DNA of 64,000 nucleotides from Heterotrichella gracilis (lineage: Eukaryota > Sar > Xanthophyceae > Tribonematales > Xanthonemataceae): assembly GCA_032358255.1 (NCBI GenBank), contig JAULBX010005887.1, positions 62,001-126,000 on the forward strand, read 5' to 3'. The position numbers were made by a program, and so were the translations under genes. This document shows positions 2,591 to 58,375 of the stretch, in pieces (the stretch's first letter is position 1; the number at the start of each line of letters is the position of its first letter). The notes under the pieces are model-generated. The model did no database searches, was not told where the DNA came from, and saw only the letters and a program-made list of their open reading frames with translations.

Positions 2591-5500
2591 CTAGCCCTTG
2601 ACGTTGGGTATGACCGTACCCAGCACCACCCCAAGTATGACCAGTAGTATGAGTATGACCAGAATGATGCAGCAGCACATCCACCTGCGGGAGCGCTTGT
2701 AGTACAGCTTGGCCTGGATCAGGTGGTCGGTGCCCCGGGACACGTAGTTGGTGGCAGAAGAAACCTGCACGCAGCAACTGGCACCCTCAGTGCCCACCAC
2801 CCTATGATTAACAAAAAATTCAAGTTTGAAACTGCAGTTTTATGTCCCGCAGGTATTTGATGAAAAATGTAGCTGCAAGGATGCACATAAAATTCAGTTA
2901 CTGCGGTATTGATATTGGGTACCCTCGATTGTACGCATTGCACCTTCAAGCCTCCATTCTACACCCTGCCGCTACGCACCATCACCCACCTGCGCCTCTG
3001 CACCGTCCCTACACCCTATTCCTCAATACCCTAAAATACAACCCTGCATCCAAGATCCAAGCGCCGCCGCCCCCCAACCCCACCTGCTTCTCTATGTTGC
3101 CCAGTATGTGGCCCTGCACCCTGTATCTTCAAACCCTAATATAAACCCCACCGCACCCCCCACCCCCCACCTGCTTCTCTATATTGTCCAGCATGTGCCC
3201 CTGCTCCTCCACCACCACCGCCATGTCCAGGAAGACCTGGTGCAGGCCAAGCAGGGAGCGCTCAAGCTCGCGCACAGCCGCGTTGCGCTCCTCAACCTCG
3301 GCAAGGGTGTCCAGCACCTGGGAGGGGAGGGGAAGGGGAGGGGGGAGCGTGTAATGCAAATAATGTGGGGGTACTCTGCTGGAGAAGCCTGGTAATGGTT
3401 TTTGCTTATTGCGGTTCATTGCATAAATCACTGGCATTATCTAAAAAACGTATACGCTGTTAGTGTACATTCTGACATTTCTTTCAACTAGCAAAAGCAT
3501 ACTTAGATCAACATGCGCTGCCAATTTGCTCTGGTACTACGTACATACTTCGTACATATGTGTAATCAGGCACATGCTTTGCAAACCTCCTATTTTTCAG
3601 ATTCTCACCATTGCCCCCTTGCCCTGGTTGATGAGCGCCTGTCGGTAGATGTCGTCCACGCCCCCCGCATCAAGCATCTCGTCCACACGCTCCTCGCTGG
3701 GCTCAACACCTGCGCAATAATATTCATTTCACATTATTATTGTTACAGGCAATCCAGCTAAAATGCCACACATGGCCGAACTTTAAACCCTAAACCCCAA
3801 GCCTCAAACCCTAAAACCATCATACTGACATCAAAGCATCTCATCCATCTGCCTCTCCGTAGGATCAACGCCTGCGCACACATCGTCATGAGGGTGTAAA
3901 ACATTTCTAAGTGTGTCAAAGTGGGGTAAGCAGCACAACTGGTTAACCACCATCTACCACATGGAGAATAGCACACCTGGCAATGGGGCATCAACACATG
4001 CGCTGAATCCCGCACATGCACGACAACATATCATCCGGGGTGTGCACAGATGATACGTTATTGTGCCAAAATTGAGTGTGCACCTGAGACGGTGACAAGA
4101 TCCAATGATAAAGGACAATATGTAGCGATTATCTGCCCCCTGCGCACCTGTGCCACGCGTGTCGGACACGTGCCGCTGCACATTGACGTATCGAAATTAA
4201 ACATGATAACATGACCATTACATGTCTCGCACCCCTGGACCATGACAAAACACCGCTGCACAGCAACAGGCCATTTATAAAGGATACAACATATCCATTA
4301 CATGCCTCCCGCGCACCTGTGACCGTGAACAGGCGCCGCTGCACAGTAACATATCAATAACAGAAATAGATTATACCATACTTGTCACATATCCTATGCG
4401 CACCTGTGACTGTGAACAGGCGCCGCTGCACTATCTCGCGGTTGTCGGCCCGCACCCGCTCACGCAGCGCAGAGAACTGACCAGTCAGGTTGCGCAGCTT
4501 GGTGCGCAGGCCAGCCGTGAGGCTGGTGCGGGTGCGGTGGGAGGCCGAGCCAGGGCCAGCGCCCTGCAATCATTAGAATATGAAGATTGGGTGTCACAAC
4601 CTCTGCAGATACAGGCTTCCTGTGCACCTGCTTGGTGGCTGCATTACTACATGATTTAATCTACATTCTTATGGTATACTTATCTTTTATAACATAGCAA
4701 TATACTATCATTATAAAAGTACTATCTTCAATGACCACATGGCAGCTTGAAGCCCAATGCTTTGTTTCTTTTCTGTAGTTTGAAGTACTGTAGAGCAGCC
4801 CCCCCACCAAACGCACCGGAATGGCTGCCGCCACCTGATTGAGGCTGTCGATCACATCCAGCTTGCCCTTGATGACGTAGGCCGCCTGGCTGGCGCTGGT
4901 GATGCGCGCCTGGATGTCCTCCCGCAGCCTGTGCACCTCGCCCTTGCTGGTGCTCAGGCGGGAGCGCTCGTGCAGCTGCTCGACGTCGCCCTGCTTGGCC
5001 TGGAGGTCCTTCAGCATGGCCTGCGGGGTGTTAGGGTTTAGGGTTTTGTGTTTTGGGTCCAGGGTCAGCAATTTAGGGTTGTGCAGCTGCTCTATGTTGT
5101 GCTGCTTGGCCTGGAGGTCCTTCAGCATGGCCTGCGGGGTGCAGGGTGCAGGGTTGGGGTCCGGAGTTTAGGATTTTAGGCTTTAGGGTTAAGGGTTTGG
5201 TTTGGGGTGAGTTTGGGGTTGTGCGCTTTGCTTGGCCTGGAAGTCCTTCAGCATGGCCTGCGGGGTGTAGGGTGTAGGGTTTGGGTCTTAGTTCAGGGTT
5301 TAGAGTTGTTTGGGTTCTCTGTATCGCGCTGCTTGGCCTGGATGTCCGTCAGCATGGCCTGCAGGGTGTAGGGTGTAGGGTTTGGCTCTGGGATTCAAGG
5401 GGTTAGGGTTATGCGGTTGCTCAAAATCGCGCTGGCTTGGTCTAAAAGTGATTCAGCATCATGCAAACCCTAATATGCAAACCCTAAACCTCAGGAATCA

Positions 5501-6576
5501 AACATCATGGCCCTGTGGGGTATAGGGTGTAGGGTTTGGGTGCTGAGGTTTAGGATGTACTGTTGTGCAGCTGCGCTGTTTCTCGCTTTGTCTGCAAGAC
5601 CTTCACTGAAGGCTGGCAGGCTGAGCATGGCCAGGCGCAATGGGTTATGCACATGGGAATGCTTCAAGTGTAAATTGTACAGGTAGGGTGCTCCTCGGCA
5701 TGGCCTCAAGATGGTGTAAACAAACACCCCCCAAACCTGCCTGCAGACGTGGACACTGCCTGCTGTGCTTGCCGCACCCGCTACAGGATTACATTCCCAC
5801 CCACCCACCTGCACTTGCTTCACCTCCCGCAGGAAATTCTGCATCTCGGTGTGGATGGGGTCTATCAGGGGGGCGGCAGGCTCCTTGCCCCACCCCCTGC
5901 CCACCGCACCCCCTTGGGCCTCAACATCGTACACATCTGACGCGCTCTGCCTGTCATCCCTGGGGCTCCGCTGCCTGGCGGGGACTGGGAAGGTTGACGG
6001 GCGATAACGGGGATTTTTATTCTGTGGAGGAGGGGGATTTGTGGTCAGCATTCTGGTGGTGGTGGTGTGGCGGGCAGGGGTTTGGAAGAAACCCTAATTA
6101 TGGTCATGCGAGATTTGGTGCAAAACTACTACCATGGCGGCAGTGCATGGTAGGACTTTCGTACTGGCAAGGAGGAGGCGCAACAGGACTACGAATTTAG
6201 CTTAGAGGACGTACTTCAGTACTATTAACACTGTTAATAGTAATAGTGACTATGCATGCCATGCCATGGCGGCCAATATTAATATTATTATTTACTAAAT
6301 AGGACTGTTAACATTGTCACAATAGTATTCAATTATAATGCGTGCCCTTCAGGGGCACACAGGGCAATAAGCCGATGACGGCTTGGAACGCCTTTTGTTT
6401 GTTTGTTTGTATTCAATTATGCATGTGCACTTCATGAACAGTGCCCGCCTTAAAATGCCTGTGGGTGCTCCCACGCACTGCACACACCCTACCAGCAGCG
6501 TGCGTGGTCCATGACTGCCGCATGCATGAGTCATGATGCCACTCACCTGGTCAATCTCGCCCAGTAGGTCATTCAT
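2591..6576 (-). CDS. Syntaxin, Qa-SNARE (SYP1-like), plasma-membrane type
   Basis: Membrane-fusion t-SNARE of 336 aa in seven exons: 6576-6547, 6021-5809, 5020-4835, 4563-4404, 3709-3609, 3317-3171, 2764-2591. Phases join cleanly, including a split Gly codon between exons 4 and 5. The start [10 protein letters not shown] matches plant SYP1 proteins. Residues about 60-200 are the helical Habc-type region, ending in the family motif RRLFTVTG. The SNARE motif runs from about 222 to 290, with [17 protein letters not shown] carrying the central zero-layer glutamine (Q257). A basic patch (KRSRR) precedes the tail anchor at about 307-330, and the protein ends NVKG. The motif GTDHLIQAK is typical of the plasma-membrane clade. 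The intron between exons 2 and 3 and those after exons 4 and 6 carry exon-edge copies (separate entries). Family assignment is firm; the subclass is inferred. The donor of exon 3 (gtggcg) is weak. Confidence 0.93.
3081..3115 (-). repeat. Copy of syntaxin exon 6 3' end
   Basis: This intronic block repeats the last ~30 bases of exon 6 plus its splice donor (original at about 3168-3205), with a few substitutions. It lies about 88 bp downstream in the transcript. Confidence 0.75.
4141..4345 (-). repeat. Three degenerate copies of syntaxin exon 4 3' end
   Basis: The exon 4 end encoding RRLFTVTG plus its gtgcgc donor (4396-4431) recurs at 4311-4345 (almost exact), about 4228-4260 and 4141-4182 (increasingly diverged). 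Spacing is roughly 80-90 bp. Each copy keeps a usable-looking donor. Confidence 0.75.
4970..5530 (-). repeat. Tandem copies of syntaxin exon 3 5' end with TTTAGGG-like spacers
   Basis: The acceptor and first ~50 bases of exon 3 (codons for [10 protein letters not shown]; original about 4973-5023) recur at about 5081-5140, 5229-5265, 5331-5368 and, more degenerate, 5435-5530. The first period is 108 bp. Spacers contain gtagggtttaggg-like sequence. Every copy keeps the cag acceptor followed by gccatgctgaag or a near variant. Confidence 0.8.
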
Positions 6577-9212: not shown

Positions 9213-12200
9213 TTACAGCCCGATTGAGGATTCCCTGGCTGGTAGGTGCACGTTCCCCTTTGGCGGTGCCGACCGGCTGCGGTGCGCGCCCGCCCGCCCC
9301 AGCGCCCGCATTGCCCGCACCATCTCCTTGAGATCCCCCACAATCTCCTTGAAGCTGGGACGGGCTAGGGGGTCCTCCTCCCAGCACCTGGGAAATCAAC
9401 AAATTTATATTGATTAAAATACATCACTAAATAACAATCTATAGTTTTCAGGGTAAACAAGTATGAAACATCCAGATATTGTTAGTCTGCGCTTGACTTA
9501 CAGATATACGATGAAGGAAGGAATCTAAGACTGCACATGCAACCCTCTGTATACATACATGGAAGCAGCACATGAGCCAAGAAATCAGAGTCAGGCCGTC
9601 ACACCCAGATCTCTGCGCACCTCTGCATGAGCTGGGACCAGCCCGGGCAGGGCTCGGGAGGAGACTCCCCTTCCCACTCTGCTGTGCCTGGGAGCGCAGG
9701 GCGCAGCCTGGCCCCACTGGTGAGCTGGTGCAGCAGCGCGTGGTAGTTGAGGCCCTCGAAGGGTTCCCTGCTGGTCCAGAACTCCCACATGACCACGGCA
9801 AAGGAGAATATGTCGGCCTGAGGATGGCAAAGATGTGTCAGCGGGCGGGCACTTGCTTACAATTGATTGAATGTGAAGTGAACATATGCACAGATGCATT
9901 GCTGTCAAGGAATGGTAATATAAGGGTTCAACCTTGCATGCAAGTGTGAAGGGGCCCCCACCTCAAGGGGCCAGCTCGATCAAACCTCAAGTACAAGCAT
10001 ATATGTATATTGAGATAAGCAAGAAGAGAAAACTTTTGCATAGAGTTGAAATTCATGAATGCTACAAGACCATGCCATCATCCCATTCCCACCAGCCATA
10101 CCCAGCGCCTCACCTTTTCTGTGACCTTGGTCGGCGTCTTGATGATCTCTGGTGCTGTCCATGGCAGCGTGCCCCTGGAGCTGTTCACCCCACTGATGTA
10201 GGTCTGCATCTTTTGCTTGGACAGACCAAAGTCGCTCACCTGGGGAGGGGGGCCAGGGTGGAGCTTAAAATCTGAACCCTAAACGATACACCCTGCATCT
10301 GCTTAGGCAAGGTCAAATTTCCCGCTCTACTGTTCCAATTGCAGACTGTCTGAATTGTAAGCTGAAAGCAAATATACCACTTGCAACTGGTAGGCCACCA
10401 GGAAGTTGAAACTTTCCAATTTCTGAGAGAAAGCTGAGGCAGCAACCAGTACATGCTTTCCCATCTCCAACAGAATCAAACGCTTGCTGTTGCAATGGGA
10501 GGCCTTGTCTGCGCGCTCACCTTGCACACCGGCCGCTTGTCCCTGTATCCCAGCAGCAGGTTGCCGCTCTTGAGGTCAAAGTGCACCACGTTCTTGTTGT
10601 GCAGGTACTCCATGCCCTTGGCGGCGTCAAGCGCAAGCACCAGGCGCTGCAGCGGGGTGGACACGATGTCCGCCTTGCGCGTCAGAGCGTTCTGCAGCAG
10701 CCACAGGGTTCTGTCAGGGGCAGCTTGCAAGGCTGCAACAGCAGGGTGATGTCATACATGATAATGTCCGCATTGCATGTACCAGGACACTGCCTGGAAC
10801 CGGATTAGATAGGGTTTTCATTCGTTTGCTTGAAGAGAAGTGGCTGCAGGGTTTGTTATTAAGCTCCCATTATGCATTACATCATATCATTTACAGCAAA
10901 GATGTGTCACATCCGCCATGCGCACCTTGAGCGAGCCTGCGCCCATGAACTCCTCCACCAGCGCCGGTGGCCGCATGGCCCCCATGGGCTGCTGGTTGTC
11001 GTTCAGCTCGTCCATGAGGTCGTCTAATAGGTCGTCGTCATCAAGGTCCAGCGGGTCCTTCTTGAACTCAGGCAGCACCATGCCGTACACCCACACGATG
11101 TTGGGGTGCCGGAAGCTGCCCAGCATGTCGGCCTCCTTCACCAGGTCCTGTAGGGTATGAGAGAAAGAAATGGTAAGAACCATTTCCCCCATTGGTTGCG
11201 CAACAAAAGTACTCACCTACATAGAGATTGGGTAGAAAGCAAAGATGGATACTTAATCACACAAGGTGGACATGGTGCGATTCTACCCCTGATCTCTACC
11301 TGAATGGCTGAGCGGTTAACTCCGTTGCTGTCGTTGGTGTTCATGGCAGAGGGGTTGATGCACTTGACAGCCACGTCGGAGTTGTGCCACCGGCCCAGGT
11401 ACACCTGGCCAGCAAGATACAAGTGAATAAATAAAACATTCATAAAGCAAAATACAAATGATTAATAAGAGATGCATCAAGCGAAAGTATATAAGAAACC
11501 GCTGATCATGGTATGTGGGCACAAATGATTACAAAACAGTGAAAAAGCAAAATACTCATGATTTATAATACTTCCATAAAGCGTCTGTCACATGAACCAC
11601 TAACCCAAGAACCCAGCTCCTTCCCCCTATCCCTGCCTCCCCCACCACGCACCTCCCCATAGCTCCCGCTCCCCAGGAAGCGCACCAGCTTCACATCCTC
11701 CACCCGAATCACCTCCATGCGCTCAACGATGTCGCTCAGGTCCAGCCTGCCCTCCTTCTTGCTGCCGGTCACCGGGCTGTTGGTGTTGGTGGTGAACCCC
11801 GAGGCGCCCAGGGAGCCCTTCCCGCTGTTGTTGAGCGAGCCCCTGCCGCTGTTGTTCAGCGAGCGCTGGCCCAGGTCGGAGATGTTGGCAACCACGTCGC
11901 CTGCCTCGGAGCCTTGGGGTGGGAAACAGAAGCATTAGTTAGTACCCACATTGACAGCACATGCTTAAAGATGGAAGAACAGAGCAAGCTGGATTGGGCG
12001 AGCGCTGGCCCCGGTCTGAGATGTTGGCGTACTACCAAAATTTCCAAGCATGATCCTAATAGTATCATTAGAAAAACAGCAAACAGTCCCCACCTGATCC
12101 AGGCACCGAGGATGCTTGCCACCTGCAGTGCTCATCTGATGACCGGTTCTGCGTGGGCGACTCGTTGCTGTTGGGGAACTCAGAACCCGTCATGGCAAGC

Positions 12201-17012: not shown

Positions 17013-19075
17013 CTACGACTCGTGCGCTGCACCCACTGACCGCTGCTGGTTGTGCCAGTCCACCACCTGGGTGTAGGGCAGGTTCCCGCCAAATATATCC
17101 AGCGCGCTGCCCACAGTGATGTCCACCCGCCCAGCCCCAAAGCTCTTCACACGCTCCAAGTCATCCTGGGGTGGGGCCAAGCGGCAGCACAAAGTCAAGG
17201 CCAGATGGTGGCAGGCACAATGATGGCACATTGCAGTCAGTCACCTACATGTCGCAGTCACCTACTGGCGACTGGGCATGTATACCACGGATTACACACT
17301 GTAAGGCAGATGATCAGGCCATAGTGGAGCTTGTGCTTGTCATTGGTCTGCATGCTACAATCAGAGGACGGCGCCAGTGCATGTGCACACCCAGCATGCC
17401 ATGCAACAATGCCCGGCACAGAGGGCTGCAAACACACACAATGCCCTCACCAGCGTTGTCGCGCCCCCTGCGTACGTCACGGGGATGGGGGACCATTTCC
17501 CCAGGGTTTGCACCAGCTCGTCGTCGATCCCCAGCTTCATCCCCTCCACATCCACCCCATGCACCAGGAACTCATCGCAGCAGAGCGCCAGGCGGGCCAA
17601 GGTGGGCTCTGTCAGCGCCAGGGAGCTGAACTTCTGCCACCGATCTGTGACCACGTAGTACACCCCCTGGTGCTTCCTGCAGCTTAGGTCCAGCACCAGG
17701 CGCTGCTTGCCAACCTGCTTCACCTGTGACCGGTGCGTGCATTTATTAGGCACATGCATTGCGCCATTATTAAAAAAACCATGATCCATGATGCCCTCCG
17801 CAGCTATCCCATGCGAACATCATATATACAGTTCCCATGTCATGCGGATACGCAGCTATCACGTGCGGATATCATACATATACTTTCCAGTCATGAGCAT
17901 ACCCACCAAGGCAGCCAGGCGATCCTCCTCCAGTTTCCCGTCCCGGAAGACAAAGGACGTGACGATGACATGGCTTGCCCCCGCCTCAAGGTACTCTCGG
18001 GCGTTGTCAGTGGTGACGCCCCCCCCCAACTGAAGGCCCCCGGGGTAGGCTTGCAACGCCCCAAATGCCGCCTCCCTGGGTGACAGCATGCGAGTCAATC
18101 GCAGTTGGTTTTTGTCGAGACAATATTAATAAGTGCCCATTGCACCTCAGGCAATGTCTTGCCTTCCTTGTCGTTGCAATAAGTGTGTGGTGATGGGAAC
18201 CCTGGCAAGGTTGTCATGCCATGGACATGGTGTCCCTGTGATACCCGGGGCGGCCGCTCTCCCAGGCAACCTTGCAACCTCAGCACAAGGCAACACTGGG
18301 GCAGCAGACTGTACGAGCTGATCCCACCTGCTGGCCACATCTGCGCCTAGCAACTAGTGCTGGGGACACCATTGCACCAATGAGCCAGCAAGCGCGGGCG
18401 ACCACCACCACAGGTTGCCTTGCAAACAACAGGGTACTGAAAAGCAGCAGTTTGTGCGGTGTGGGGCGCACCTGCTGGCAGCATCTGCGCCCAGCATGAT
18501 GACGTGCCCTCCCGGCAGCCTGTCCTGTTTGTACAGCTCAGCATACCAGTTGGCGGGCTTCTCGCTCTCAAAATTTGTGACAAGCTCTGGCGCAGCAGTT
18601 TTACTGCAAGGAAGGGATAGGACCTCTGAATTGCAGGGTTGGTGCACCAGCGATGCTAGACTGGCAATGGCGAGTTGGCGGGTGGTATGCCAGGGGTGGG
18701 TTGTACAAATAGAAGGCAGATTACCTGGTGCTTGCTTCGTCTGACAGCGTGGAACCAACTATTTGCTTCACTTTGCCCTGCATGGGAAACAAGTCGCGTT
18801 GACGCCTCGGTCTAGGTGCGCATTTTGATGGTTGAAGTAGTTTTGATGGCATGCACGAAAGTGCTGGTCAAGCCTTGTAGTTGTAGTGCATTGTAGTGTT
18901 TAGCACCGGCACTACACACCTTGTGGATGTCAATGCAAGGTCTGAAGCTGACACAGGTGGTTTGAGGGTCCACTGCTGAGCTGCATGCTACAGCTTGTCT
19001 CCTCGTCTGTCTCCCATGCAACGGGCTGGGCCCCAGCCTCCCACTGACACTGTGCACCAAACTTTGACAAGCCAT
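17013..19075 (-). CDS. HISN3: HisA/BBMII isomerase, chloroplast histidine biosynthesis (ProFAR isomerase)
   Basis: This enzyme (EC 5.3.1.16) isomerises ProFAR to PRFAR, the fourth step of histidine synthesis, in the plastid stroma. The 311-aa model has six exons: 19075-18920, 18777-18725, 18603-18472, 18075-17907, 17723-17451, 17165-17013. About 45 N-terminal residues form a Ser/Arg/Ala-rich transit peptide ([18 protein letters not shown]). The barrel starts with [20 protein letters not shown]. Further family motifs are [69 protein letters not shown] and [18 protein letters not shown]. First-strand and fifth-strand aspartates (FRPCID, LDLSC) are present. Length matches plant HISN3 (about 300 aa). 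The ATG at 19075 is the first in-frame ATG giving a complete transit peptide. The gene is transcribed away from the SPT small-subunit gene. Confidence 0.95.
17799..17902. repeat. Two-copy 52-bp tandem repeat in a HISN3 intron
   Basis: Two adjacent 52-bp units (17799-17850 and 17851-17902) share the frame cgcagctatc.c.tgcg..ata..cata. They end just short of the donor of the exon at 17907. Confidence 0.7.
18323..18352 (-). repeat. Copy of HISN3 exon 3 3' end
   Basis: Intronic sequence encodes a near-copy of LGADAASR plus its donor (original about 18467-18500), about 145 bp downstream in the transcript. Confidence 0.75.
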
Positions 19076-36100: not shown

Positions 36101-39100
36101 GCAGACATGTAAACTGGTAAGTACAGCTGACCAAAAGTAATGTAAAAGAATATTCAAAAATCATTGATGCATGATTATGTGTCCCAACGTGCACATTGGA
36201 GCCAACAACTTCTCTTAAAATATTCCAATGCGGTAAATGCACTCCTTTGCATGTAAGTGATGCCAAGTGCCGGGTCCACGGAAACCTCTGGCAAAAAGGC
36301 CCCTAGAAGCATGCCATTAGACACCAATGTGGTTGTCCCTCCTTGGGTCACCCTGGCAAGGGTATGCACACATGCCCGCACCTCCATCTGCTCCAACCTC
36401 ACACCCTACAAAGCCCATTCCCTTCTCCACCTAAACCTTAAACAAGGATGAGCATGCCCGCACCTCCACCTGAGTCGCTGGCCAACTCCGCCTCGTCCCC
36501 CTCCTGCTCCAACCCCACACCCTAACAAGTGCACTCCCCTCCCCACCCTAAACCCTAAACAAGGGTGTACTTGCACGCACCTCCATCAGAGTCGCTGGCT
36601 GACTCCGCCTCGCTGCCCTCCTGCTCCAGCCGCCACTGCTTCTTCACCTCGTCCGCAGCAACCGCCGCCTCAGCAGCCGCGATGCACGCCAGCAGGTTCT
36701 CGTCGGCGCTCGCCGTCCCATCCCCAGACCCATCCCCAACATTGAAGGGCTTCAAACACACCACGGGCAGCCACGCGTACTCGGCCTCGTCCTCTTTGCC
36801 TGTCTCGGTGAGGTGCATTGCGCGCATGCAGGCCGCCATGGCGCCCTCCACGTGGCCCATGGATTTGGCCACCTCCCCGGGGATTCCCTTGGGGGTGAAG
36901 AACACCACGGGGATGAAGGTGTGGACCTCGGAGGCGCCGCCGGGGGGCGGGCCCACCTGAGGGAATAGGGTGCAGGGTTTAGGGTTTCTGCTTTAGGGTT
37001 GAGGGTCTGGGGCTTTGGGTTCAGTTATGCAGGTGCAGGGGCGGGTCCACCAAGGAAAATAGGGTTCATGGCTTAGGGGGGGGTGAAAACCTGGACACGC
37101 AAAGGTTTGGGGTTCATAAGAGTGGGTTATGCAAGTGAAAAGACGGGCGCATGTCAGAAGGTTGATCAGGTAGTTACATGTGTTCCAACAGAACACAAAA
37201 CTCTAAAATTACCTCGTTCACCGAGCAAAACGCTGGTTCAACACCAAATTCTTGCCACAATTAGTGGCCCGCCAAGGTGGTGCAGTGCCGTTCGGTGCAA
37301 CCCACCTCTTGTGGCACCGAGCGACGCTGCACCACCTTGGCTGGACACCAATCGTGACAAGAATTTGGTGGTCAAACAGTGGACCTAACCCTAAACCCTG
37401 ATTTAGGGTTTACCCACCTCTCTGGCACCGCACGACGCCGAGCCTGATACCTATTGACAACCCTGAATATATACCCTAAACCCTAGACTCACCTCTCGTG
37501 GCACCGAGCGGCGCCGCACCACCTTGGCTGGCCAACAGTCGCGAGAATACATTCAGTGATCCCTAACCCTAAGCCCTTATTTAGGGTTTCACCCACCTCT
37601 CGTGGCACCGAGCGGCGCCGCACCACCTTGGCAGGCCACCAGTCATGGCCCTCAACCTTGGCCCACACCGATCGCCCTGGTCTGAAGGAGCCAGGGGGAT
37701 ACAGCGAGGCTGGGTCGTTCGCCGCACCCTCCTCATCCAGGTCCTCGTCCTGGAGACAAGGAAACAGCAAGTATTATGTCGCTGCCAGTACATGGAACCC
37801 AAAACCCTTATATGTGACTGCAAGTGCACGGAAGCCTCAACCCATTTAGGTGGCTGCATGTATATTGAAGCTCTTCCTGATTGATTGTTGGTATCTATAT
37901 ATGTATAAACATTTGCTGGCAATAATGGCCCTTGGCCAAGAAAGGCGCCATGTCCCCAGACTGTTAACCTTTCACCTTAAACCCTAAGCCCTCCTTGCCC
38001 CGCACCATTGGCTCCTGGTCATCAAACTCAAGAGGCCATGTTCACACCCTAAACCCACACCCTAAACCCTAAACCCTGCCCCGCACCATTGGCTCCTGGT
38101 CGTCAAACTCAAAGCCCATGCCCAGCAGCGCCTCAGCCGCCTCACTCAGGTTCTTGCCGATGCGGCTCCCCGCGCGGCCCCCGCCCCGACCCGCAATGCC
38201 GCCAGCCCTAGCTCGCCCCTTGCCCCTCCTGGGGCCCCCGCGCTGCTGCTGCTGTTGCTGCTGCTGCTGTTGGCCCCCTGCTCCCAGGGATGGGGGCTGG
38301 CCCCCCGAGGTGGCGGTGGGGAGGGGGGCGGGGGCGCAGCCCCCGCTGCCCACGGAACCCTTGCTTAGGGTTCTGCCCAGTTCGCGGCGGCCGCTGCCTG
38401 TGCGGGAGATGACGCGCCCCTCCTACGGCAAGGGGAAGAATGGATGAATCACGCTAGCCGGTGTGATGTAAGTGCACAATGCACTTTTTGGAACCCCGTC
38501 CCACCCCACCTTGCAGCTTCCATGCCTCCCACACCTTTCCATTTTAACACACAACGACCCTTTGCAACACACATCCTTCCCTACCCATGCCCTCCACCAC
38601 ACACACCTTTCGGAACGAACCGCTGCGCCCGCCCTGCAGCAGAGCACCCACCCCCCGCAGCCCCTCCTCGCCCCCTGGCATGCCGCCGGAGCGCACCTGG
38701 CCAGGCACCCTCCCCCCACTGCGCCCGGGGCCCCGCTGCGCCCTCGCAGCCTCCAGCCTCTGGCTGTCAAAAGGCGCATTTGGGTCATCCTCGTCCATGT
38801 CCTCCTCCCCTTCCTCGTCGTCAAGGGGGGCGGCGTCCTCGTCGTACCTGGGGCGCCAGGTGGCAGCACGTGAACGACTCATACCAAATGCATCGGAGAG
38901 TTACCGCGGTGCCGCGCATTGTACTGCCAAGCCACAATGGCTTGGGGCATGCTCCTGAGCGACACTTTATCAAGTATCCTTATTTAGGGCTCCCGTGATA
39001 AACCCTGATCCCCAACAAGGTACCAGGGCGTCCATATTGAAGGCAGGGTAATAATGTGAGGGCTTGAATCGTATACATTTGGCCAGAGATTCAGCCTCTT

Positions 39101-41852
39101 ATGTTGCATGTCTTGGATTTTACATGCATTTATATCCCAAACACGTGTGGCCCCAATACAGATGTCAGCTCACCCGTCATATGGCTCCTCCTCTTCCTCC
39201 ATGTGTGCCTCATAGTCCTCAGCCTCAGCCTGGAGCAGTGAACCACATGCGTGAAACCCTGTCTCCTACAACCTGAACCCTAAACCCCAAACCCTGAGAT
39301 CAAATTCAAAGCTGACAGGGCAGTCCTCAGCCTTGGCCTGAAGCACACCATGGAACTTTATGCAGAAATACAATGACTTTTTAAGAAAACACGTGCTACG
39401 GTATGCTTTTCAAGGCAATACGTGGTATGCTTTCTAAGGCGACGCATGGTATGCGTGTTAGGCAACGCATGGAATGCTTTCTTAGGCAACACATGGTTAG
39501 GAAAAGCCTGCCCACGCGCCGCATGCAACAGGCAACCCCAGTGCCTGCGCCTGGTACCTGAGGTTAAAATTTGGGGTTTACCTGCAGTGCCAGGATCTCG
39601 TCGATCTGGTCGTCTGACAGCGCCTGCGGCACGCTGCACTGCGCATGCTCCAGGTCCCACACGTTGTCCTTGCACTCCCAGTCGTCAGGGATGTCCTCGT
39701 CGCTCACGGTGTAGGGCACCTGGCGCAAGGGGTGGAGGGGTAAGGACGGAGGGGAGGGGCTGAAATGCAAATGGTCAGAGGCCGGCCAGCTAAGGTACAG
39801 GCTGGGTGGTGCGAGCTGTTAAACAGTGACTGCTTATTCAACTGTCCTGGTGGAATGCATGTGACGGGGTAAGCAACCACTGGTTATGTGGAGAATTCTT
39901 GTGAACCAGCACACCTGAAACAACCAACGTAGTTCCGTCAGAATTTAGGATTTTAGTTAGGGTTTGGGATGCAACTGCGAAACGCTAGCAGCACAGGCTT
40001 ACTTTGGCACACTGAGCCCTGAACCACAAGCCTTGCTACACCCTAAACCTGAACCCTAAACCTGACCCCCTGGAGCACTACACCCACTTCTGCAGCGCCT
40101 CCTTCTCCATATCAAAACCCTTGCTACACCCTAAACCTGAACCCTAAACCCTACCTTGCGCCATAGGTTGCAGCTGGAGCACTACACCCACTTCTGCAGC
40201 GCCTCCTTCTCCATGTCAAGACCCTTGCTGCACCCTAAACCTGAACCCTAAACCCTACCTTGCGCCACAGGTTGCAGCGGGAGCACTGCACCCACTTCTG
40301 CAGCGCCTCCTTCTCAAGGTTGAGCCCCTTGCGCAGCTTGCGGTGGGGAGGGGCAGCGCCTCCCCCTTCGTCCTCTTCGCCCTCGCCCCCTTCCTCGCCA
40401 GCGTGGCCTTGTTGGTGGTCGTACTGGTCGCTGAACAGCGGGGCAAGGTGTGGGGTTAAGGTTTGGCAGGGGTTGGGTGCGGGTGTGGTGTAGGGTTTGA
40501 CAGGAGCTGCAGGTTAACCTAAGTAGGGGTGCGGATGTAGTTAGGGTTTTGGAGGGCCAGCAACCATCTGTGGGTTGTTGGTCAGGGAAGGGCGTGGTTT
40601 TAGGGCAGCGGGTTGTGCAAGGCAGAGGGGTTGTCCCATCGGGGAGCTCAGGGTTCAAAGAGCTTCTACACTGTACAAGGTACCTTGCAAAGTCTGCGAG
40701 GGCTCCCAGTGCGTCCAGGGCCGCTAGCTCATCGTCCTGCTCGTCCCCAGCCTCCTCCTCCTCCTCCTCGTCACCATCCAGCTGCAACCAGACACCAGTG
40801 CCTATATTTATGTCAGGTCGTTTTGCATGCAAACACCACCAGACATGGGTCGAAGACCAACAGCGCTCACTGTGCAGGGCAAGCGATAACAGGTGGCCTA
40901 CGGGTAACCTGGGCACTTTTCACGTGCTTCCGTCAAAACCGAGCATTGTGTGTGTATGTGCGCGGTGAGAAAGCGAGGGAAAAAACTTTTCAAACGAAGG
41001 TCAGCCAAGTGCGGTGGTAGACAACAGAGCTGAAGTATATATGCAATGCCCAGTACGAGCACACTTGCACACTTGGTAACAACTGAGCGGGAGCGAGTCT
41101 TAGCTCATCCCGCTCGCGCTCCGCCCACCGACCACCCGGATTAATCAACCACCCCAAAACATCACGTGTGCAAGGGCTTGTAGTGTTCGGAAATAGCCCA
41201 GACGCCTAAAATATGCTGGTTAGAGTGCAATAACATCCCCCATATGCAGACGAGCTAGGGCAGCTCTTGCCCAGGAAGGTACCTCGTGGCCTTCATCATC
41301 TTCGACGAGGTCGCCTTCATCCACTGCACAGCCAATAAGCGTGTCTCAGCGAGCTTAAAAACAGCTAGCCATGGGTTACGCTTGACTGGTGCAAAATCAG
41401 TGTGGCTCGGATTTTTCGAGCGGTTTGGCGGAAATTGAAGGCAGCCGGTAGCTGAGGCTACCACGCCAACCCCACACCAACGCAAGTGCAAACTCCTCAA
41501 CCGCTTATATGCATGATGGGTCCCAAACGGCAGTAAAGAAGTTGCATTACTTTTGCAAAGCGAGCACACAGCAAACGCGCAACATTGCGTGCACCAGAAT
41601 TTGAAGGTGCTCGAGACCGGCTTTCCCCAGTGGGGGTGCGAGGCAGGACAACAACAAAACCACAACCGCGCTAGCACCAGCAGTGCATACATACTTTAAA
41701 GGACCCACGCAGGAACAAAGACTTGTAGAGGCATAGGTTTTGCAAAGTTATGTTTGGGAATCGGGTGCGATGCATGGATAAGGTTATTCACCGTCAGCCT
41801 CTACTGGATCTCCCTGATCCTGCACCACATCCTCCTCTCGCTCCTCTGACAT
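21157..41852 (-). CDS. CW-PWWP-double chromodomain-SNF2 (CHD-like) chromatin remodeller, probably ATPase-impaired
   Basis: I model 37 exons totalling 8202 nt (2733 aa plus stop), with every junction in phase and GT-AG throughout. The ATG at 41852 starts an acidic N-terminus (exons 41852-41792, 41323-41283, 40781-40684). Then come a CW zinc finger, acidic and Gln-rich linkers (exons 39229-39174, 38847-38607, 38422-38087), a PWWP domain, an RGG-like segment (36098-35972), two chromodomains, the SNF2 ATPase lobes and a 1350-residue C-terminal tail; each module has its own entry. Order and motifs from the chromodomains to VSDLFNP follow CHD proteins of the nucleus. Several ATPase residues differ from all active SNF2 enzymes I know. 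The CW and PWWP modules suggest reading of methylated H3K4 and of methyl-lysine or DNA. The tail exons stay in phase with the helicase exons, but a second gene in 21157-28199 cannot be excluded without transcripts. Confidence 0.85.
25990..26040 (-). repeat. Copy of remodeller exon 29 3' end
   Basis: Repeats about 26094-26143 (VHGAG codons plus gtgcgc donor) 104 bp downstream in the transcript. A TTTAGGG tract lies between copy and original. Confidence 0.75.
26066..26095. repeat. Interstitial telomere-like tract
   Basis: Four consecutive (T)TTAGGG-type units inside an intron, between an exon edge and its copy. Shorter tracts occur near 14770, 36545, 37385, 38044-38078, 40130 and 57250. Confidence 0.85.
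26695..26900 (-). repeat. Copies of remodeller exon 28 5' end and exon 27 3' end
   Basis: 26695-26745 repeats the exon 28 start with its acceptor (original 26617-26660), and 26774-26795 is a weaker second copy. 26878-26900 repeats the end of exon 27 with the donor side altered. Both exon edges bounding this intron are thus duplicated inside it. Confidence 0.7.
30025..30857 (-). other. SNF2 C-terminal helicase lobe (exons 20-21)
   Basis: Exons 30857-30699 and 30410-30025. VCSHPFTNPDF, ASGKLQMLDRVL and HKVLVLSQ are standard. Motif V reads FLMATRSCGLGTHL (usual STRAGGLGINL). Motif VI reads SRAHAVGG (1319-1326) where RAHRIGQ is expected, so the second arginine and the glutamine are missing. GTVEERILQLVEKKR completes the lobe. 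Confidence 0.9.
31122..31245 (-). repeat. Nearly exon-sized duplicate of remodeller exon 19
   Basis: About 125 bp repeat the second half of exon 19 and its gtgggt donor. The reading frame is open and codes a variant (TMLAQFCDLLTDVRPVCHSG) of the original TMLARFYDLLTDPRPVRHSG. A possible acceptor (ggcctgtcag) lies just upstream. Confidence 0.8.
31328..33840 (-). other. SNF2 N-terminal ATPase lobe (exons 15-19), motif I intact, motifs II and III degenerate
   Basis: Exons 33840-33637, 33301-33186, 32955-32703, 32135-31872 and 31567-31328. QPDWVTGGQLYPHQ opens the lobe. Motif I is DDMGLGKT (913-920) and motif Ia VLIVVPANMLPFWEGEW. Motif II reads VLVDDRN (D1035, D1036) where active enzymes have VDEAH. 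Motif III reads LLLGGAPRGG (1061-1070) instead of LLTGTPLQN. LLSPHMLRRER and MIPVDLTPPQ match the CHD consensus that follows. Confidence 0.9.
32401..32590 (-). repeat. Two copies of remodeller exon 17 3' end
   Basis: 32481-32590 repeats about 110 bp of the exon end and donor (original 32700-32810), with an indel and several substitutions. 32401-32425 is a shorter copy with the same donor. Confidence 0.8.
33926..33952 (-). repeat. Copy of remodeller exon 15 5' end
   Basis: Repeats the acceptor and first codons of exon 15 (original 33829-33852), about 100 bp upstream in the transcript. Confidence 0.7.
34223..35618 (-). other. Double chromodomain of the remodeller (exons 12-14)
   Basis: Exons 35618-35460, 35165-34921 and 34491-34223. 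The first chromodomain begins KIVVETILGWRW (exon 12) and resumes YLVKWLGKSHVHNEWV (exon 14), with about 90 acidic, Gln/Glu-rich residues inserted between. The second has WEVLVKWEELRYDACTWE. The SHVHNEWV motif is characteristic of CHD chromodomain 1. Confidence 0.85.
34676..34890 (-). repeat. Copies of remodeller exon 13 3' end
   Basis: 34771-34855 repeats about 85 bp of the exon end and donor (original 34918-35001), roughly nine bases in ten identical. 34676-34712 and 34861-34890 are partial copies. All keep the caag/gtaa-type donor. Confidence 0.8.
36371..36530 (-). repeat. Two copies of remodeller exon 10 3' end
   Basis: 36452-36530 and 36371-36413 repeat the end of exon 10 (original 36570-36633) with the flanking ccctaaac-like sequence. 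Confidence 0.75.
36581..37749 (-). other. PWWP domain of the remodeller (exons 9-10)
   Basis: Exons 37749-37597 and 36956-36581. The signature is RSVWAKVEGHDWWPAKVVRR (HDWWPA at residues 415-420). The second half, VHTFIPVVFFTPKG and AEYAWLPVVCLKPF, supplies the remaining barrel strands; there is a linker of about 30 residues (MGHVEGAMAACMRAMH region) inside. An acidic Ala/Glu/Ser tail ends the exon. Confidence 0.85.
37242..37545. repeat. PWWP exon-end copies, including an inverted foldback
   Basis: The exon 9 end (original about 37590-37640) recurs at 37487-37545, 37412-37444 and 37303-37370. A further copy at 37242-37298 is in opposite orientation and pairs with 37314-37370 as two 57-bp arms around a 15-bp loop. 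Confidence 0.85.
37995..38078 (-). repeat. Copy of remodeller exon 8 3' end plus telomere-like tract
   Basis: 37995-38032 repeats the exon 8 end and donor (original 38077-38115) with few changes. The spacer at 38044-38078 is ccctaaaccc-type sequence. Confidence 0.8.
39321..39346 (-). repeat. Copy of remodeller exon 6 5' end
   Basis: Repeats the acceptor and first codons of exon 6 (original about 39212-39238), upstream of it in the transcript. Confidence 0.65.
39582..40430 (-). other. CW-type zinc finger of the remodeller (exons 4-5)
   Basis: Exons 40430-40259 and 39719-39582. WVQCSRCNLWRK ends one exon and VPYTVSDEDIPDDWECKDN continues in the next. Zinc ligands are C116, C119, C140 and C152, with conserved tryptophans W113, W122, W138 and W145. 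CW domains bind H3 tails methylated at K4. The domain is split by the intron at a point where tandem exon-edge copies have accumulated. Confidence 0.9.
40071..40330 (-). repeat. 104-bp tandem repeat of the CW exon end (original plus two copies)
   Basis: The exon 4 end coding for the first zinc knuckle recurs with starts at about 40071, 40175 and 40279, an even 104-bp period. Spacers contain ccctaaacctgaaccctaaaccct. Confidence 0.85.
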
Positions 41853-48250: not shown

Positions 48251-48736
48251 ACATTCACCACCACGCCAGGTCAAAATAAGTCGATCACAAAATTTGCCCA
48301 ACTGCATTGGATGCGCTGCGTGTTTACAATGAAATTACCAAGAATTGGAATTCTAGAAATTCCTGTCACAATTGCCAAATTGGCACGGTGTTGCACTGCA
48401 TTTAAGGCTGAGGGATGTATTCTATGAACTCGAAAATTTGTTAACAAATTAGCAACTAATTGTCAGAAAAAATCTTCTGTAGATCTAACTCTCACTCTCA
48501 GTGCAGTCTTGACGTCTGTCGAATCATTACATGAATGTTCGACCTACTACGCAAATCTCCTAATTTGTCTGTTAATGGTCACCCTTAAATGTTGAAGTGT
48601 GAGTGGGCCTACCAGCCCCATGTCTGACAAACCCTATACCGCCTCAGCGCCCCTGCCTGTGTTGATGGACTTCAACTTGTACCCTGATACCTCGCTACTT
48701 GCGCTGTCACTTGATTTAGCCACTGCTGCAGCAGCA
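48251..48736. other. 3' flank of membrane-protein paralog A, with its abandoned tail reading frame
   Basis: From 48634 upward the sequence still codes, in the frame lost by the 2-bp deletion, a tail almost identical to paralog B (ending [11 protein letters not shown]). No other gene is seen. Confidence 0.6.
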
Positions 48737-53650: not shown

Positions 53651-55188
53651 CCTGCTGCTGTGCCTTGATAAGACTCTAACCTTAGGATCGGATCAAATAT
53701 AGCTGTGTGGAAGAGACGTAGAAACTACTTGTCAGGCACGTTTCTTCAATGAACACCAATGCCTTGAAGAAACGTGCAACTCGTCGTTATGAACTGCAGT
53801 GGCCTTGAGATTCGAGCTGGTGTTGAGAGTGTGTATTGCAAAGCTGTTGTCGAGTTGGTCGAGTGCGTTTGGGAACGAAGAAACAGTTCGAGGTGCATGT
53901 TCTTATGTAGCAAACGTGCAGCTAGTGAGCTTTGCACAACGGTCCCGATTTGACTGGTGACACTGACCGGACGTCAGCTGCAGTCGTCGCCGACAGAGAC
54001 TGTCGACAGCACGATCGCGCGCGCGCTGTCCGCCGGCGTCCTGCAGTACAGCACCGGACGGCATGCCCGCGCGCGGCGCCATGTCCGCGACATGTACCGG
54101 TCAGAGCACCTGGTCTCCGGGACCATCATGCGGTGCTCCGGACGAGGACCCTACCCTAGGGTCGACGCCTCTAGGGAATGCCCAGCTCTGCATGCATCCA
54201 CAGTGACCCAATGGCATCCCCTACCCCACAGTTGCCAACGACGTCCAACCCAGGTTGCGAATGACATGTGGCAGAAATAGCCTACAGGTCAGGGATGTGG
54301 TCAGGGCTGGAGTTAAGCAGCGCGAGAACAGCTTTCAGCTGAGCTGGATCATTCATGATGCAGCTGCACTCATGATAATATGTAATTGCATGCCATGGTG
54401 AGTGCTGCACTCGTGCTCATCTCCTTGCCCGGCCCAGCCCCACATTGCGCACTCAGCGCAGCTCAGCACTCGAGTGATCAGCCTGGGGGAATGAGGCCGG
54501 CTACCAGTTCAAGAGCACATGATAGAACATGGGAGGCTGCAGCCAGCAGAACAAGCATGGTGCGCCATCAGCTCCTTCCATTCGGAGTGCAATGTATCAA
54601 CAGTGGTGCATTACACCACGCAACTGGTTGGGGTGGGCGTGGCCGCCACACATGCGCACAGCATGCCTTGCACATCGTAGTGATAGCTAACCTAGCGATA
54701 CCTTGCCACAATCCCCAATGGATTGTCCATGAACCAGCTCAATGCATCTGAGCAGGTGGCCATTGCCGTTCAACTGCGAGCTACAGGATTCACTATGGGA
54801 CACATACCACCCAATAAATTTGTTGGAACCTTTGTCATGGCGCCGCAAGCCTGGGAACTAGATAAACGGCACGGCGAGCCTCAAATGCATTTTTAGCCCG
54901 GGAAAATGCTAACCTACGTTCCTGAGACTACAGCGCTTCCACGCGTTGAAATGGTGGGCTGGCACTCACTCTGTCCCTGCTGCCAGGCCCATTGGAAACT
55001 TACTATCCTTAATCCCTAAATCCTCTAGCCATTGCCAAACCTCCTGCCTGGCAAACCCTTTAAAGGGCTTACACTTCCCCATTTTACCCTCCTGCAGTGG
55101 CCACACCTTGGAGGTTCTCCCCCATTCCATGTGCACGCCTCCCCAGCCACGCCCCTTGCCCCTTCCTCCCCTTTCCCTTGATCCCGCC
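53651..55188. promoter_or_regulatory. Paralog B promoter and FKBP 3' flank
   Basis: The block at 53825-53925 is shared with the promoter of paralog A. 53990-54170 is GC-rich (CG-dense). The remainder has no supportable gene. Confidence 0.45.
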
Positions 55189-58100
55189 TCACTGGCCATA
55201 CACCTTGAGCAGTTCAATGTCAAACAGCAGTGTCTTGTCGATCATGCCCTGGTTCTTCAACACAAACTCAAGGGTGCGCCGGCCCTGGACAGGAAACCAT
55301 GCACAAGGGTTTTCAAGCAAGGGTTGCACTGCATTCTGTGTGCATTTGGCAGAAGGGAGTCCCCTCCCCTGCCAAATGCTGTATGAGCTACATTGAGTTT
55401 GTGGCCAATTGCAAGGCTCCCCACTCCTTCAGCACATACTCAAGGGTGCGCCGGCACAAGAGTTTTCAAGCATGAACACCACACAAACCAACAAACAGCA
55501 GAAAGGTGTTCCCAGCCGCGATCGGTTTATTGTCTTGTGTGCAAGTGAAGGGCACACATACACACTGCAAATCATACACAAGGGTTTTGAAGCAAGGGTT
55601 GCAATGCATCTGTGTGCGTTTGGCAGGTGGATCCCCTCCCCGCTGCATGGGCTACATGTGCAATGGGTATATATGTGGGGCCCTGTGCGCAAACAAGCAT
55701 GCATAACCACTTCATTTAGTAACATAATTTAGCACAGTAATGGTGCTGATTGTAATGGAGTCATTGATGTTGACTGGATGCAAATATATACAAAAGCCAC
55801 ACCCAGCGACCCTGGCACGCCACCAGGGCTGCATACATCCTGCCACACTGCATCAAAGGGTCATAAGGTAATATGAGGTCCTAACAGATACTTGTGACCA
55901 TTGGCAGCACGCACCGAGAAAGTCGTGGGTTTAGGCCCCTGCTTGTTGAAGTCATTTCCAGGGTACCCCAGCTCTACAGGCACAATGATTCGGCGGATGC
56001 CGCCCACCTTCATGCCCTTCAAGGCCTCCTCAAACCCAGGGATCACCTGCGGGGATAAACGAAGTACATCAATAAAAAAAAGGCTTCAAGCAGTACAGCT
56101 AAATTGAACACTCTGACTAGATGAATAAGTGAATATGCATTCATCTGCAATTGCCAAATTACAACAACTGGTACATGCGGTCGGTGTATGCAGGCGTGCA
56201 GACTAGTGAGTTGTGGTGACATGCACTTTGAGCAGATGTTGATGTTCTAGCGACCATTCCCTATTGATCGCTCACCTCCCCACTCCCCAGCTTGAACTGG
56301 AAGAACTCCTTTTCATCCCCTTGGAAAGCGCCCCCCTTGGCCTGCACACAACCCATGGATGCTTTCAGTTTGGCAAGCTAGTTATTTGGCATACCACATG
56401 GGCGTTGCATGCTGAGCAGATTATGCGGCTGGCCCATTTTTTCCACTATGGAATTGAATTGATTATATGTCATCACTATGGCATTGACTAGTTGCCATCA
56501 CTGTGGCATTGATTAGTTGTCATCATTATGACATTGATTCGTTGTCATCACTATGGGGCATTGATTAGTTGTCATCACCATGGCATATTGGTTAGTTGTC
56601 ATCACTATAGCATTGATTAGTTGTCATCACCTGTGGCATTGATTAGTTGCCATCACTATGGCATTGATGCCAGCCGCTTGTTAAAAACCTGGCCATTGTG
56701 CCCGGCTTTACGAATTCAGATCGTGTGCATGCTGGGCAGGTGATACATACACATGCACGTTTCCTAGTAAACCCTAAGCCGCACGGCTTTGCATACCGTA
56801 CCTTGTTGCGGGCCTCAAACGGCCTGCCATAGTAGCCAATGGTGTAGCCATCCCAGTCCACCGTCACCCTGTCCCCAGGATTTGGTGTTTGCCCCGTCCC
56901 TTCTTTCAAATCCTGGTACTGCAGCCCTGACGCTGTGGTCACATAATCCTTGTACCTGCGCCAGATATATAATAATTATTTTTATATAATTATAATTGTT
57001 TTCATAACTACATTATAATGATTTTTAATAGTTATATCGGAACAGTAGTTGCGCGCGTGACTGTGCTTGTTGGTTGTGGCGGTGAGTGTGATGGCGGATG
57101 TCAATATGTTGTAAATGTGTCAACGTCCTGGTAGTGGAACCCTGTACTGATGGACATGTCATCCGTGTACCTGCTGGATGGAAATTAGTAATGTGTTTCC
57201 GTAACCCTTCCATTGGCTCAATTGCCCTAGCACACTATCTGAGAGGCCCTAAACCCTAAACCAGGCTCTCGCAGCTAGCCACATGAGGGGCAGGAGGTGC
57301 ACACAGAGTCGCTCACCGCCGTCTATACAGGCTTACATAAAGACATCACGTAACCCCAGAGGGCACGCCTACGGTCCCTCTATTCAACAAAACTTAAGAA
57401 ATAGTGTATGATGTGATGATGCAGAAAATCTTGAAAGCAAAATATTTCCATAGGGTACGCCCTGCTTTCCACCTACGTCATGCGCGGTTTTCCATAATCC
57501 TTCCCCTTAAGCGCCTCCATCGGCTCGAAATCCTGCGCATGGCTCGGGGCACACCCCAGTCCCAGGGATAGTCCAGCCAGCAGTGCTGCCTGCAGATGCT
57601 GGCGCCTGCATCATAGGGATTGCATCACATGGTGTTCACACACACGCCGCTAGAGCTACAGACTAGCTGCTAGTGCTTTAATTACTGGCCGGGAAGTCAG
57701 TGCGGCAACAAAAAAGGACAAAAAAAAACAATACAGCCCTCAAGACCTACCTGTCAATGGCAACAGCATCGACGGGACTGTGCGTCCCAGTGTCATGGCG
57801 AGGAGTTGCAGCAGCCACGGGCTGTGTGCACCGCCTGCGGAGCAGGTTTAAGGTCACTTTATTTGCGACAAGGCTGCGGGTTTAGGATTTGGGCTTTAGG
57901 GTTTCGGAGGAGCATGTCGTGAGTGCAAGAAAGGCTGCCCTTTCCAGATGGAAACGGTGTGTGCTGGGATATCCTGGGCGCACACACACGCAACACCACA
58001 AATAGGCACCCAACAAGGCACATCTTTGTGACATCCAACAACCCATACTGGGTGAAACAACTCGTCCAGTCTGCAAGTGCTGGAACCATATACGGTACAT

Positions 58101-58375
58101 ATAGCTTTCAGCAGCCAATTTGTACAATGTGGGTTGATGGTTTGTTGACAGTGACTATGCATATGGTATGCATGCATGTGGCAGCTGACCAATATACTGC
58201 CTATGGAGGTTAAAGTCTTTCATTTATGGCTTATTGATATGTTATATGACACAGACAAGGCGCAACCCACTTTGGGCATCAACGTCAGGAGTCGTTCAGC
58301 ATACCTGCCGTTGGCTGGTCTCGTTGCCCTGAAGCAAGCCCTTTGGTGCATGGGTGCTGCAGTCATGCTGGCCAT
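55189..58375 (-). CDS. Thylakoid-lumen FKBP-type peptidyl-prolyl isomerase with twin-arginine signal
   Basis: Folding catalyst of 243 aa in seven exons: 58375-58305, 57834-57751, 57605-57477, 56955-56802, 56341-56276, 56046-55915 and 55284-55189. Phases agree at every joint. Exon 1 (MASMTAAPMHQRACFRATRP) is a chloroplast transit peptide. DRRQHLQAALLAGLSLGLG with PSHAQ after it is a Tat-type lumenal signal; the first arginine of the RR pair is split by an intron. The FKBP fold follows: SGLQYQDLKEGTGQTPNPGD, VDWDGYTIGYYGRPFEARNK, GGAFQGDEKEFFQFKLGSGE, VIPGFEEALKGMKVGG, RRIIVPVELGYP and TLLFDIELLKVYGQ. This matches the plant lumenal FKBP clade, many members of which have weak isomerase activity. 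Introns hold a minisatellite and an exon-edge copy. The far-upstream first exon is inferred from phase and its transit-like sequence. Confidence 0.9.
55407..55660 (-). repeat. Duplicated exon 7 5' end and flank in an FKBP intron
   Basis: 55407-55470 repeats the exon 7 start region (ctcaagggtgcgccgg, original about 55265-55285). The flank 55301-55390 (acaagggtttt.aagcaagggttgca) recurs at 55576-55660. Together they suggest a duplication of the acceptor region and part of the intron. Confidence 0.7.
56467..56668. repeat. Minisatellite, 8 units of 25-27 bp
   Basis: Eight head-to-tail units near tgtcatcactatggcattga in an FKBP intron between the exons at 56341 and 56802. Units differ by one to four bases. 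Confidence 0.9.

Follow-up and report, generated by a model that had tools for sequence, protein, structure and literature searches.

Copies of neighboring exon edges within introns of the xanthophycean alga Heterotrichella gracilis and their association with telomere-like tracts

A question raised by a 64,000-nucleotide stretch of the Heterotrichella gracilis genome (GCA_032358255.1, contig JAULBX010005887.1, positions 62001-126000; contig C61 in our numbering and hereafter the window) is how its introns came to contain copies of the edges of the exons that flank them. The original prediction, made from the letters of the window, described such copies in five genes, for a syntaxin, a kinase, HISN3, a remodeler and an FKBP, and postulated a local duplication process, by replication slippage or by break repair primed by telomere-like microhomology. 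We find that the copies are real and were for the most part described correctly, and that the interpretation placed on them is supported in part.

Occurrence, structure and decay of exon-edge copies

The sample comprised 314 kb of the 68.5-Mb assembly, namely the window and a further 250 kb (positions 1-200000 of contig C2 and five 10-kb pieces from contigs C46, C24 and C57). A simple gene finder trained on all 314 kb settled on 481 introns with a median length of 290 bp, with an AG/GTGCG-like donor and a TGCAG/G-like acceptor consensus (the slash marks the junction). Exon edges throughout are predictions of this gene finder rather than RNA-based models. The scan covered 299 of the 481 predicted introns, each lying between reliable exons, after exclusion of introns longer than 1500 bp and of exons shorter than 60 bp or with a weak coding score, and it compared the outer 60 bp of each flanking exon with its own intron at a main threshold score of 20.

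A direct copy of the edge of a flanking exon was present in 45 of the 299 introns (score at least 20). The matches involved 49 of 598 edges, with 29/299 three-prime edges and 20/299 five-prime edges represented, and each control gave zero or one match: 0/598 with other introns, 1/598 with the reverse complement, and 1/332 with a segment 120-180 bp inside the exon. A 147-bp imperfect palindrome in a remodeler intron (37233-37379, 78% identical to its own reverse complement) contains an exon-edge copy and is probably the one strong reverse-complement match. Lowering the threshold to score 18 gave the event set used below (58 events in 53 introns), and 73 copies were counted once further ones from score 16 were included. 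Copies that the gene finder mistook for exons are under-counted in these figures.

The described direction, with 3' ends of exons copied downstream and 5' ends upstream, held without exception, as wrong-side intron comparisons gave 0/434 matches at score 20. This rule requires no special process; splicing and selection would presumably impose it, because the mRNA stays intact only if the outermost donor or acceptor is used.

The excess of direct copies was also evident without a gene model. Self-BLAST of the window (E < 1e-3, less than 1.5 kb apart) gave 25 direct pairs versus 2 inverted ones, and the 200 kb of C2 gave 43 close direct pairs versus 1 inverted, for a combined 68 versus 3, these pairs being alignments and not independent loci. 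One dinucleotide shuffle per sequence (first 64 kb of each) left 0 close pairs. A predicted exon was touched by 17 of the 25 window pairs and by 42 of the 43 C2 pairs, although some of the exons in C2 are tiny predictions that are possibly copies themselves. The remaining 8 window pairs involve no predicted exon; an example is an array at 56458-56668 in a predicted FKBP intron, a 25-bp minisatellite of about 8 copies with no visible exon edge in its unit.

Copy-bearing introns were found in the window (13/69) and in C2 (32/181), but not among the 49 introns of the C46, C24 and C57 pieces, where self-BLAST of the 50 kb likewise returned no close pair, direct or inverted. The excess over expectation that a genome-wide scan was foreseen to find is thus borne out for the 314-kb sample (49/598 edges) but not for these three contigs, and the process looks uneven along the genome. 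The same pieces (L029-L033) have fewer telomere-like motifs, and their codon usage resembles that of other contigs (r 0.83-0.94). Assembly collapse was considered as a source of the copies and is a poor account of them, because their exon parts are 73-100% identical to the exon and graded like an age series, as expected of copies of differing age.

The offset from exon edge to copy was 53-227 bp in 57 of the 58 events, and the one at 351 bp has nearer copies present. Donor-type offsets (35 events) had a median of 105 bp and acceptor-type offsets (22 events) a median of 175.5 bp (p = 0.006), with spacer medians of 59 bp and 116.5 bp, respectively. Units on the acceptor side may be longer because each needs its own branch site and pyrimidine tract. 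The predicted spacing of 80-110 bp describes much of the window, where 9 of 14 best-copy offsets fall at 80-117 bp, but the full range there is 81-227 bp. Plain tandem units and copies with an unrelated spacer are both present. Near-exact tandem units occur at 40072-40332 in the window and at 4374-4808 and 134304-135714 in C2. In several high-identity events (C2 181242-181609, 189655-190082 and 29451-29939), the exon part is 92-97% identical, the adjoining intron has no recognizable repeat, and the copies enclose a filler-like stretch.

Among 47 junction-reaching events, mean identity was 0.84-0.88 in the exon (first 30 bp) and 0.65-0.72 in the intron (bases 3-30), compared with 0.46-0.53 in mismatched pairs. 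One explanation that bears on this difference is gene conversion between exon and copy, perhaps templated by spliced RNA or cDNA, which would keep the exon part of the nearest copy similar, such that edge copies outlive interior ones. A high-identity class of 17 events, with exon-side identity of 0.96-0.88 over the first 30 bp and about 0.6 in the intron beyond its first 10 bp, is consistent with conversion, as are copies that stop at the exon boundary (the first two of the filler-type events just listed). However, that class was picked by exon-part identity, which inflates the contrast, and conversion acting on DNA should homogenize the adjoining intron parts as well. Fully tandem units with like identity on both sides also exist (the window unit and the second of the two C2 units given above), and we consider gene conversion an unlikely explanation.

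The copies decay neutrally. Differences between exon and copy at codon positions 1, 2 and 3 were 0.123, 0.120 and 0.192 (about 1030 sites each). Of 63 indels, 56 disrupt the reading frame, and a frameshift is present in 29 of 58 events and a stop in 11. The even change at positions 1 and 2, together with the frameshifts and stops, fits free decay of the copy, with the exon changing mainly at silent sites. Duplicated alternative exons with a reading frame selected in both copies, which we also considered, do not agree with these frameshifts and stops. Splice sites were multiplied at the sequence level, as had been proposed, with GT or AG retained in 33 of the 47 copies that align to within 2 bp of the junction. 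Such retention could point to functional alternative exon edges or decoy splice sites under selection, but mean identity alone predicts about 35 of 47, which gives no hint of selective retention, and the indels, the stops and the equal change at positions 1 and 2 make a selected function very improbable.

Copy-bearing introns are longer than introns without copies (median 407 bp versus 299.5 bp, a difference of about 108 bp), and this length, the direct orientation and the neutral decay agree with the proposal that local duplication adds intron length. The duplications might instead create new introns, by tandem duplication or as introner-like elements, since telomere repeats contain GT and AG and junction duplications resemble known intron-gain geometry. 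Matching sequence at both splice sites was nevertheless found in 0/283 introns of at least 130 bp (score 18). The two event regions that were searched against the genome had no match at any other place at E <= 1e-10, which may speak against an introner-like element, and we regard intron creation as the least probable of the explanations discussed here.

Junction preference and telomere-like tracts

Junctions are moderately favored over intron interiors, at odds of roughly 1.7 to 4 given these gene models. Besides the 45 introns with an edge copy, 19 of which also have an interior one, 11 introns had a direct copy in their interior and none of an exon edge at score 20, for an observed interior fraction of 0.196 (11 versus 45 introns). 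Dropping introns with a weak edge score of 18-20 leaves 8 interior-only introns; the count of 11 is the one that matches the counting in the simulation described next.

An alternative to a junction preference is that tandem duplication is random and uniform in rate, and that duplications at junctions stand out because their exon copy is recognizable for longer while exon-only duplications are purged. Random duplication would account for the direction rule, the orientation and the neutral decay. We simulated it by inserting duplications, sized as observed, at random positions in real exon-intron-exon sequence and letting them decay neutrally, in four settings of 25 runs each. Junction-spanning events already made up about half to 70% of those detected, and shortening the introns to 0.6 of full length lowered the interior fraction to be expected to 0.29-0.32, near the observed 0.196. 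The mean fractions in the four settings were 0.496, 0.461, 0.316 and 0.294, but the observed value lies below all 100 runs, the lowest of which was 0.224. (An earlier simulation that was not built on real introns, with edge/interior ratios of 0.72-1.31, is superseded.) Uniform random duplication also leaves the telomere-like motif association unaccounted for. We judge it possible but not probable, and among the main results the junction excess is the least secure.

Telomere-type repeats at internal sites exceed chance. The heptamer AAACCCT is the most frequent 7-mer in the introns, and the intron coverage of TTTAGGG and CCCTAAA heptamers is 3.9 and 5.3 times that of their reversed controls. 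Across the 68.5 Mb, exact (TTTAGGG)3 had 406 forward and 428 reverse matches, with neighboring matches overlapping and some possibly lying at true chromosome ends, compared with 0 for the reversed control. Both splice sites show an excess of the motif within 50 bp, except for the G-rich strand at the acceptor end. Throughout the 299 introns, TTTAGGG-strand heptamers number 0 in the final 25 bp of the intron, where CCCTAAA-strand heptamers are frequent. The G-rich strand may be missing there because its AG might serve as a premature acceptor, and the C-rich strand may also act as branch site and pyrimidine tract.

The link between telomere-like tracts and exon-edge copies is real but not universal. 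A motif lies within 60 bp of the junction in 30 of 53 copy-bearing introns versus 64 of 246 others (odds ratio 3.7, p = 3e-5). The telomere-like share is 14.4% in spacers, 7.4% in the equivalent stretch beyond the copy and 7.0% in the rest of the intron, and a control motif is also higher in spacers (4.2%) than beyond the copy (2.7%). Tracts had been described as often lying between copies, and one separates edge and copy in 7 of 14 window events and 21 of 57 sample events, so that the description holds for part of the events and is not general. Of these 57 events, 12 have a tract both in the spacer and beyond the copy, 9 in the spacer only, 3 beyond the copy only and 33 in neither place. The 9 and 3 do not separate arrival of the tract before the copy from arrival after it. 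What bears on the proposed priming of the duplications by telomere-like microhomology is only an association, and 33 events lack a tract in either place. Eight (TTTAGGG)3 loci yielded five distinct repeat-bearing introns that could be scored. A qualifying edge copy is present in three of the five, and one of these three was part of the sample from the start. At one such locus (L002, 1474-2683), three adjacent introns have high edge-copy scores of 21, 51 and 44. Regional telomere-like density and copy frequency are related in a way that is only suggestive (rho 0.35, p = 0.06, 29 bins).

Copies gene by gene in the window

The window holds 22 intronic copies, with further ones counted from score 16, of 14 exon edges in 14 introns (Table 1). 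All five genes are affected: the syntaxin at 3 edges, the PB1-kinase at 1, which is not outermost, HISN3 at 1, which is weak, the remodeler run at 8 and the FKBP at 1. The HISN3 copy fails score 20 and passes only score 18, whereas the other 13 introns pass score 20. Pfam backs all five gene identities (syntaxin, kinase, HISN3, CHD-type remodeler and FKBP), with the SNARE domain itself below the cut-off, and the PB1 label on the kinase is our own reading. The remodeler is further backed by a PDB search, and HISN3 and the syntaxin are backed by orthologues. Among the best 120 HISN3 matches, many named top matches are from chlorophytes (Tetradesmus, 77%), by which the alga resembles a chlorophyte, and the single top match (64%) is labeled Rhododendron. 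The gene finder predicts the remodeler as a single run of 46 exons (21290-41323), in which more than one gene may be present.

Conserved proteins align across junctions once the copies are omitted, namely CHD4 and Chd1 at two remodeler junctions (the copies at 31129..31248 and those of the exon ending at 32703) and eight algal syntaxins. The first of these remodeler copies was left out of the 58-event count. In the syntaxin, the gene finder set one exon edge (5131) within the four-copy array. The eight orthologues back an edge near 5020 (position by eye), one unit inward, and because of this, the stretch up to 5131 is probably one additional, uncounted copy. The syntaxin copy with the GTGCGC donor is followed further down the intron by older, more diverged units (by eye; BLAST pair 4102-4261 / 4271-4431).

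Table 1. Exon-edge copies in the window, by gene (positions of the window; TRF, Tandem Repeats Finder)
Positions	Strand	Gene	Feature	Match
3084..3120	-	Syntaxin	Copy of 3' edge of exon ending 3171; downstream intron 2765-3170	32/37 bases
4317..4344	-	Syntaxin	Copy of 3' edge of exon ending 4404, with donor GTGCGC	27/28 bases
5171..5605	-	Syntaxin	Four copies (5171-5248, 5249-5358, 5359-5459, 5503-5605) of 5' edge of exon 4817-5131 in units of about 111 bp that take in the acceptor and a CCCTAA-rich tract	Self-BLAST E 2e-56
11998..12028	-	Kinase	Copy of piece 23-54 bp inside exon starting 11912, not outermost edge	29/31 bases
18328..18352	-	HISN3	Weak copy of 3' edge of exon ending 18472	22/25 bases, score 19
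25939..26041	-	Remodeler run	Two copies of 3' edge of exon ending 26105; telomere-like spacer	35/42 and 26/31 bases
26694..26730	-	Remodeler run	Identical copy of 5' edge of exon starting 26649; CCCTAAA-like spacer	37/37 bases
31129..31248	-	CHD remodeler	120-bp copy of 3' edge of exon 31328-31567, itself predicted as an exon	85%
32405..32605	-	CHD remodeler	Copies of 3' edge of exon ending 32703	103/119 and 18/19 bases
34689..34768	-	CHD remodeler	Partial copies of 3' edge of exon ending 34776	27/30 and 32/40 bases
36464..36518	-	CHD remodeler	Copy of 3' edge of exon ending 36581; telomere-like spacer	47/55 bases; TRF 117-bp array
37306..37540	-	CHD remodeler	Two copies of 3' edge of exon ending 37597; telomere-like spacer	46/48 and 44/51 bases
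38006..38040	-	CHD remodeler	Copy of 3' edge of exon ending 38087; TTTAGGG-like spacer	32/34 bases
40072..40232	-	CHD remodeler	3' edge of exon ending 40259 copied twice, in a genuine 104-bp tandem repeat whose unit takes in a TTTAGGG tract	69/77 and 45/53 bases; TRF 104 bp x 2.4, 95%
55427..55455	-	FKBP	Copy of 5' edge of exon starting 55284	27/29 bases

The window has two further features. A 123-base segment on the minus strand (42979-43101) has an Rfam tRNA match of 45 bits that suggests an intron-containing tRNA, and ARAGORN, under bacterial settings, made no call there. Two adjacent predicted genes (48040-50229 and 51508-54135) encode proline-rich proteins that resemble each other and have a hydrophobic segment close to the end (by eye).

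Candidate mechanisms and known systems

The explanation that we favor for the duplications, with moderate confidence, is that repair-type small local duplications span exon-intron junctions and occur there in preference to intron interiors. A pair of breaks or nicks near a junction would be filled in and rejoined, and the product would be either a plain tandem duplication or a pair of duplicates enclosing filler. Such a duplication could become fixed since use of the outermost donor or acceptor would keep the mRNA unchanged. If the duplication spans a donor, the first donor would be used and the second copy would fall into the downstream intron; if it spans an acceptor, the last acceptor would be used and the spare copy would lie upstream. 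The spare exon edge, now part of the intron, would then decay neutrally. Telomere-like tracts may be filler from break repair, as at mammalian interstitial telomeric repeats, fragile sequence that provokes breaks, or both. A bolder version holds that junctions are favored sites of recurrent telomere-linked duplication, in which breaks at the junction are mended with telomere-type filler and a 20-120 bp edge copy, introns grow stepwise inward, and each step seeds a spare splice site; we think this version doubtful.

Several observations weigh against repair-type duplication with a junction preference. The junction excess was obtained with our own gene models and a simple decay model, and the shortened-intron settings of the simulation come close to the observed interior fraction. 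The filler-type events, in which a well-preserved exon part adjoins intron without clear homology, are not predicted by plain tandem duplication followed by neutral decay. In more than half of the events (33/57), neither the spacer nor the stretch beyond the copy contains a telomere-like tract, and the absence of copies from the 49 introns of the C46, C24 and C57 pieces speaks against a genome-wide rule. Finally, two event regions searched for an empty site within the genome itself matched their own place only, yielding no second allele.

We found no description of exon-edge copies in introns as a class in the titles and abstract openings of the literature searched, in which subscription papers are poorly covered. 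Small duplications of this kind are reportedly the subject of papers on rice and plants by Vaughn and Bennetzen (2014) and Schiml et al. (2016). Pace et al. 2009 (PMC2671141) described short local duplications that arise by capture of nearby DNA (proximal median 147 bp), with filler at many breakpoints and duplicated exons and intron splice sites among the products. As in that study, the second copy in H. gracilis lies close to the first. The donor-acceptor distance there averages 1.2 kb (partly set by the method) and 4 of 824 donors are partial exon/intron, whereas here all but one of the 58 offsets are below 230 bp, the copies are direct and junctions are favored. Small direct adjacent tandem duplications are also produced when CST and Pol alpha-primase, the telomere fill-in complex, fill overhangs at breaks (PMC8355091). 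Those arose from Cas9-induced breaks in cultured cells, and the parts consulted tie them neither to exon edges nor to telomere-like sequence on site.

The nearest algal report concerns tandem repeats in introns of Chlamydomonas and Volvox that cluster near intron-exon junctions (PMC3887541). Those repeats are short motifs, and the parts consulted mention neither an exon edge nor a telomere-like tract in the unit. Mammalian interstitial telomeric repeats are inserted at breaks, with the flank duplicated at a minority of loci (6/130 in rodents and 4/25 in primates; PMC2246262), whereas here the flank is 20-120 bp of exon plus intron and most events lack a telomere-like tract. A review of intron gain describes tandem genomic duplication carrying splice-site sequence within a gene (PMC3443670); the intron is the duplicated unit in that geometry, which was not seen among the 283 introns scored above, and existing introns grow instead. 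Short direct repeats of 4-30 bp at intron borders (PMC11782384, 2025) relate to intron insertion and have a different geometry.

Exon-edge copies thus belong to a known kind of local duplication, as a variant that moderately favors junctions and is linked to telomere-like sequence. The source of intron length in compact genomes is poorly known. If duplications start preferentially at junctions and of the splice sites only the outer one survives, then introns would grow from their ends, with each copy dating itself, and such growth could account for the clustering of tandem repeats near junctions in the green algae discussed above. If true, it would make these introns a natural setting in which to study telomere-linked break repair within transcribed genes, and both the junction preference and the telomere link merit genome-wide scrutiny.

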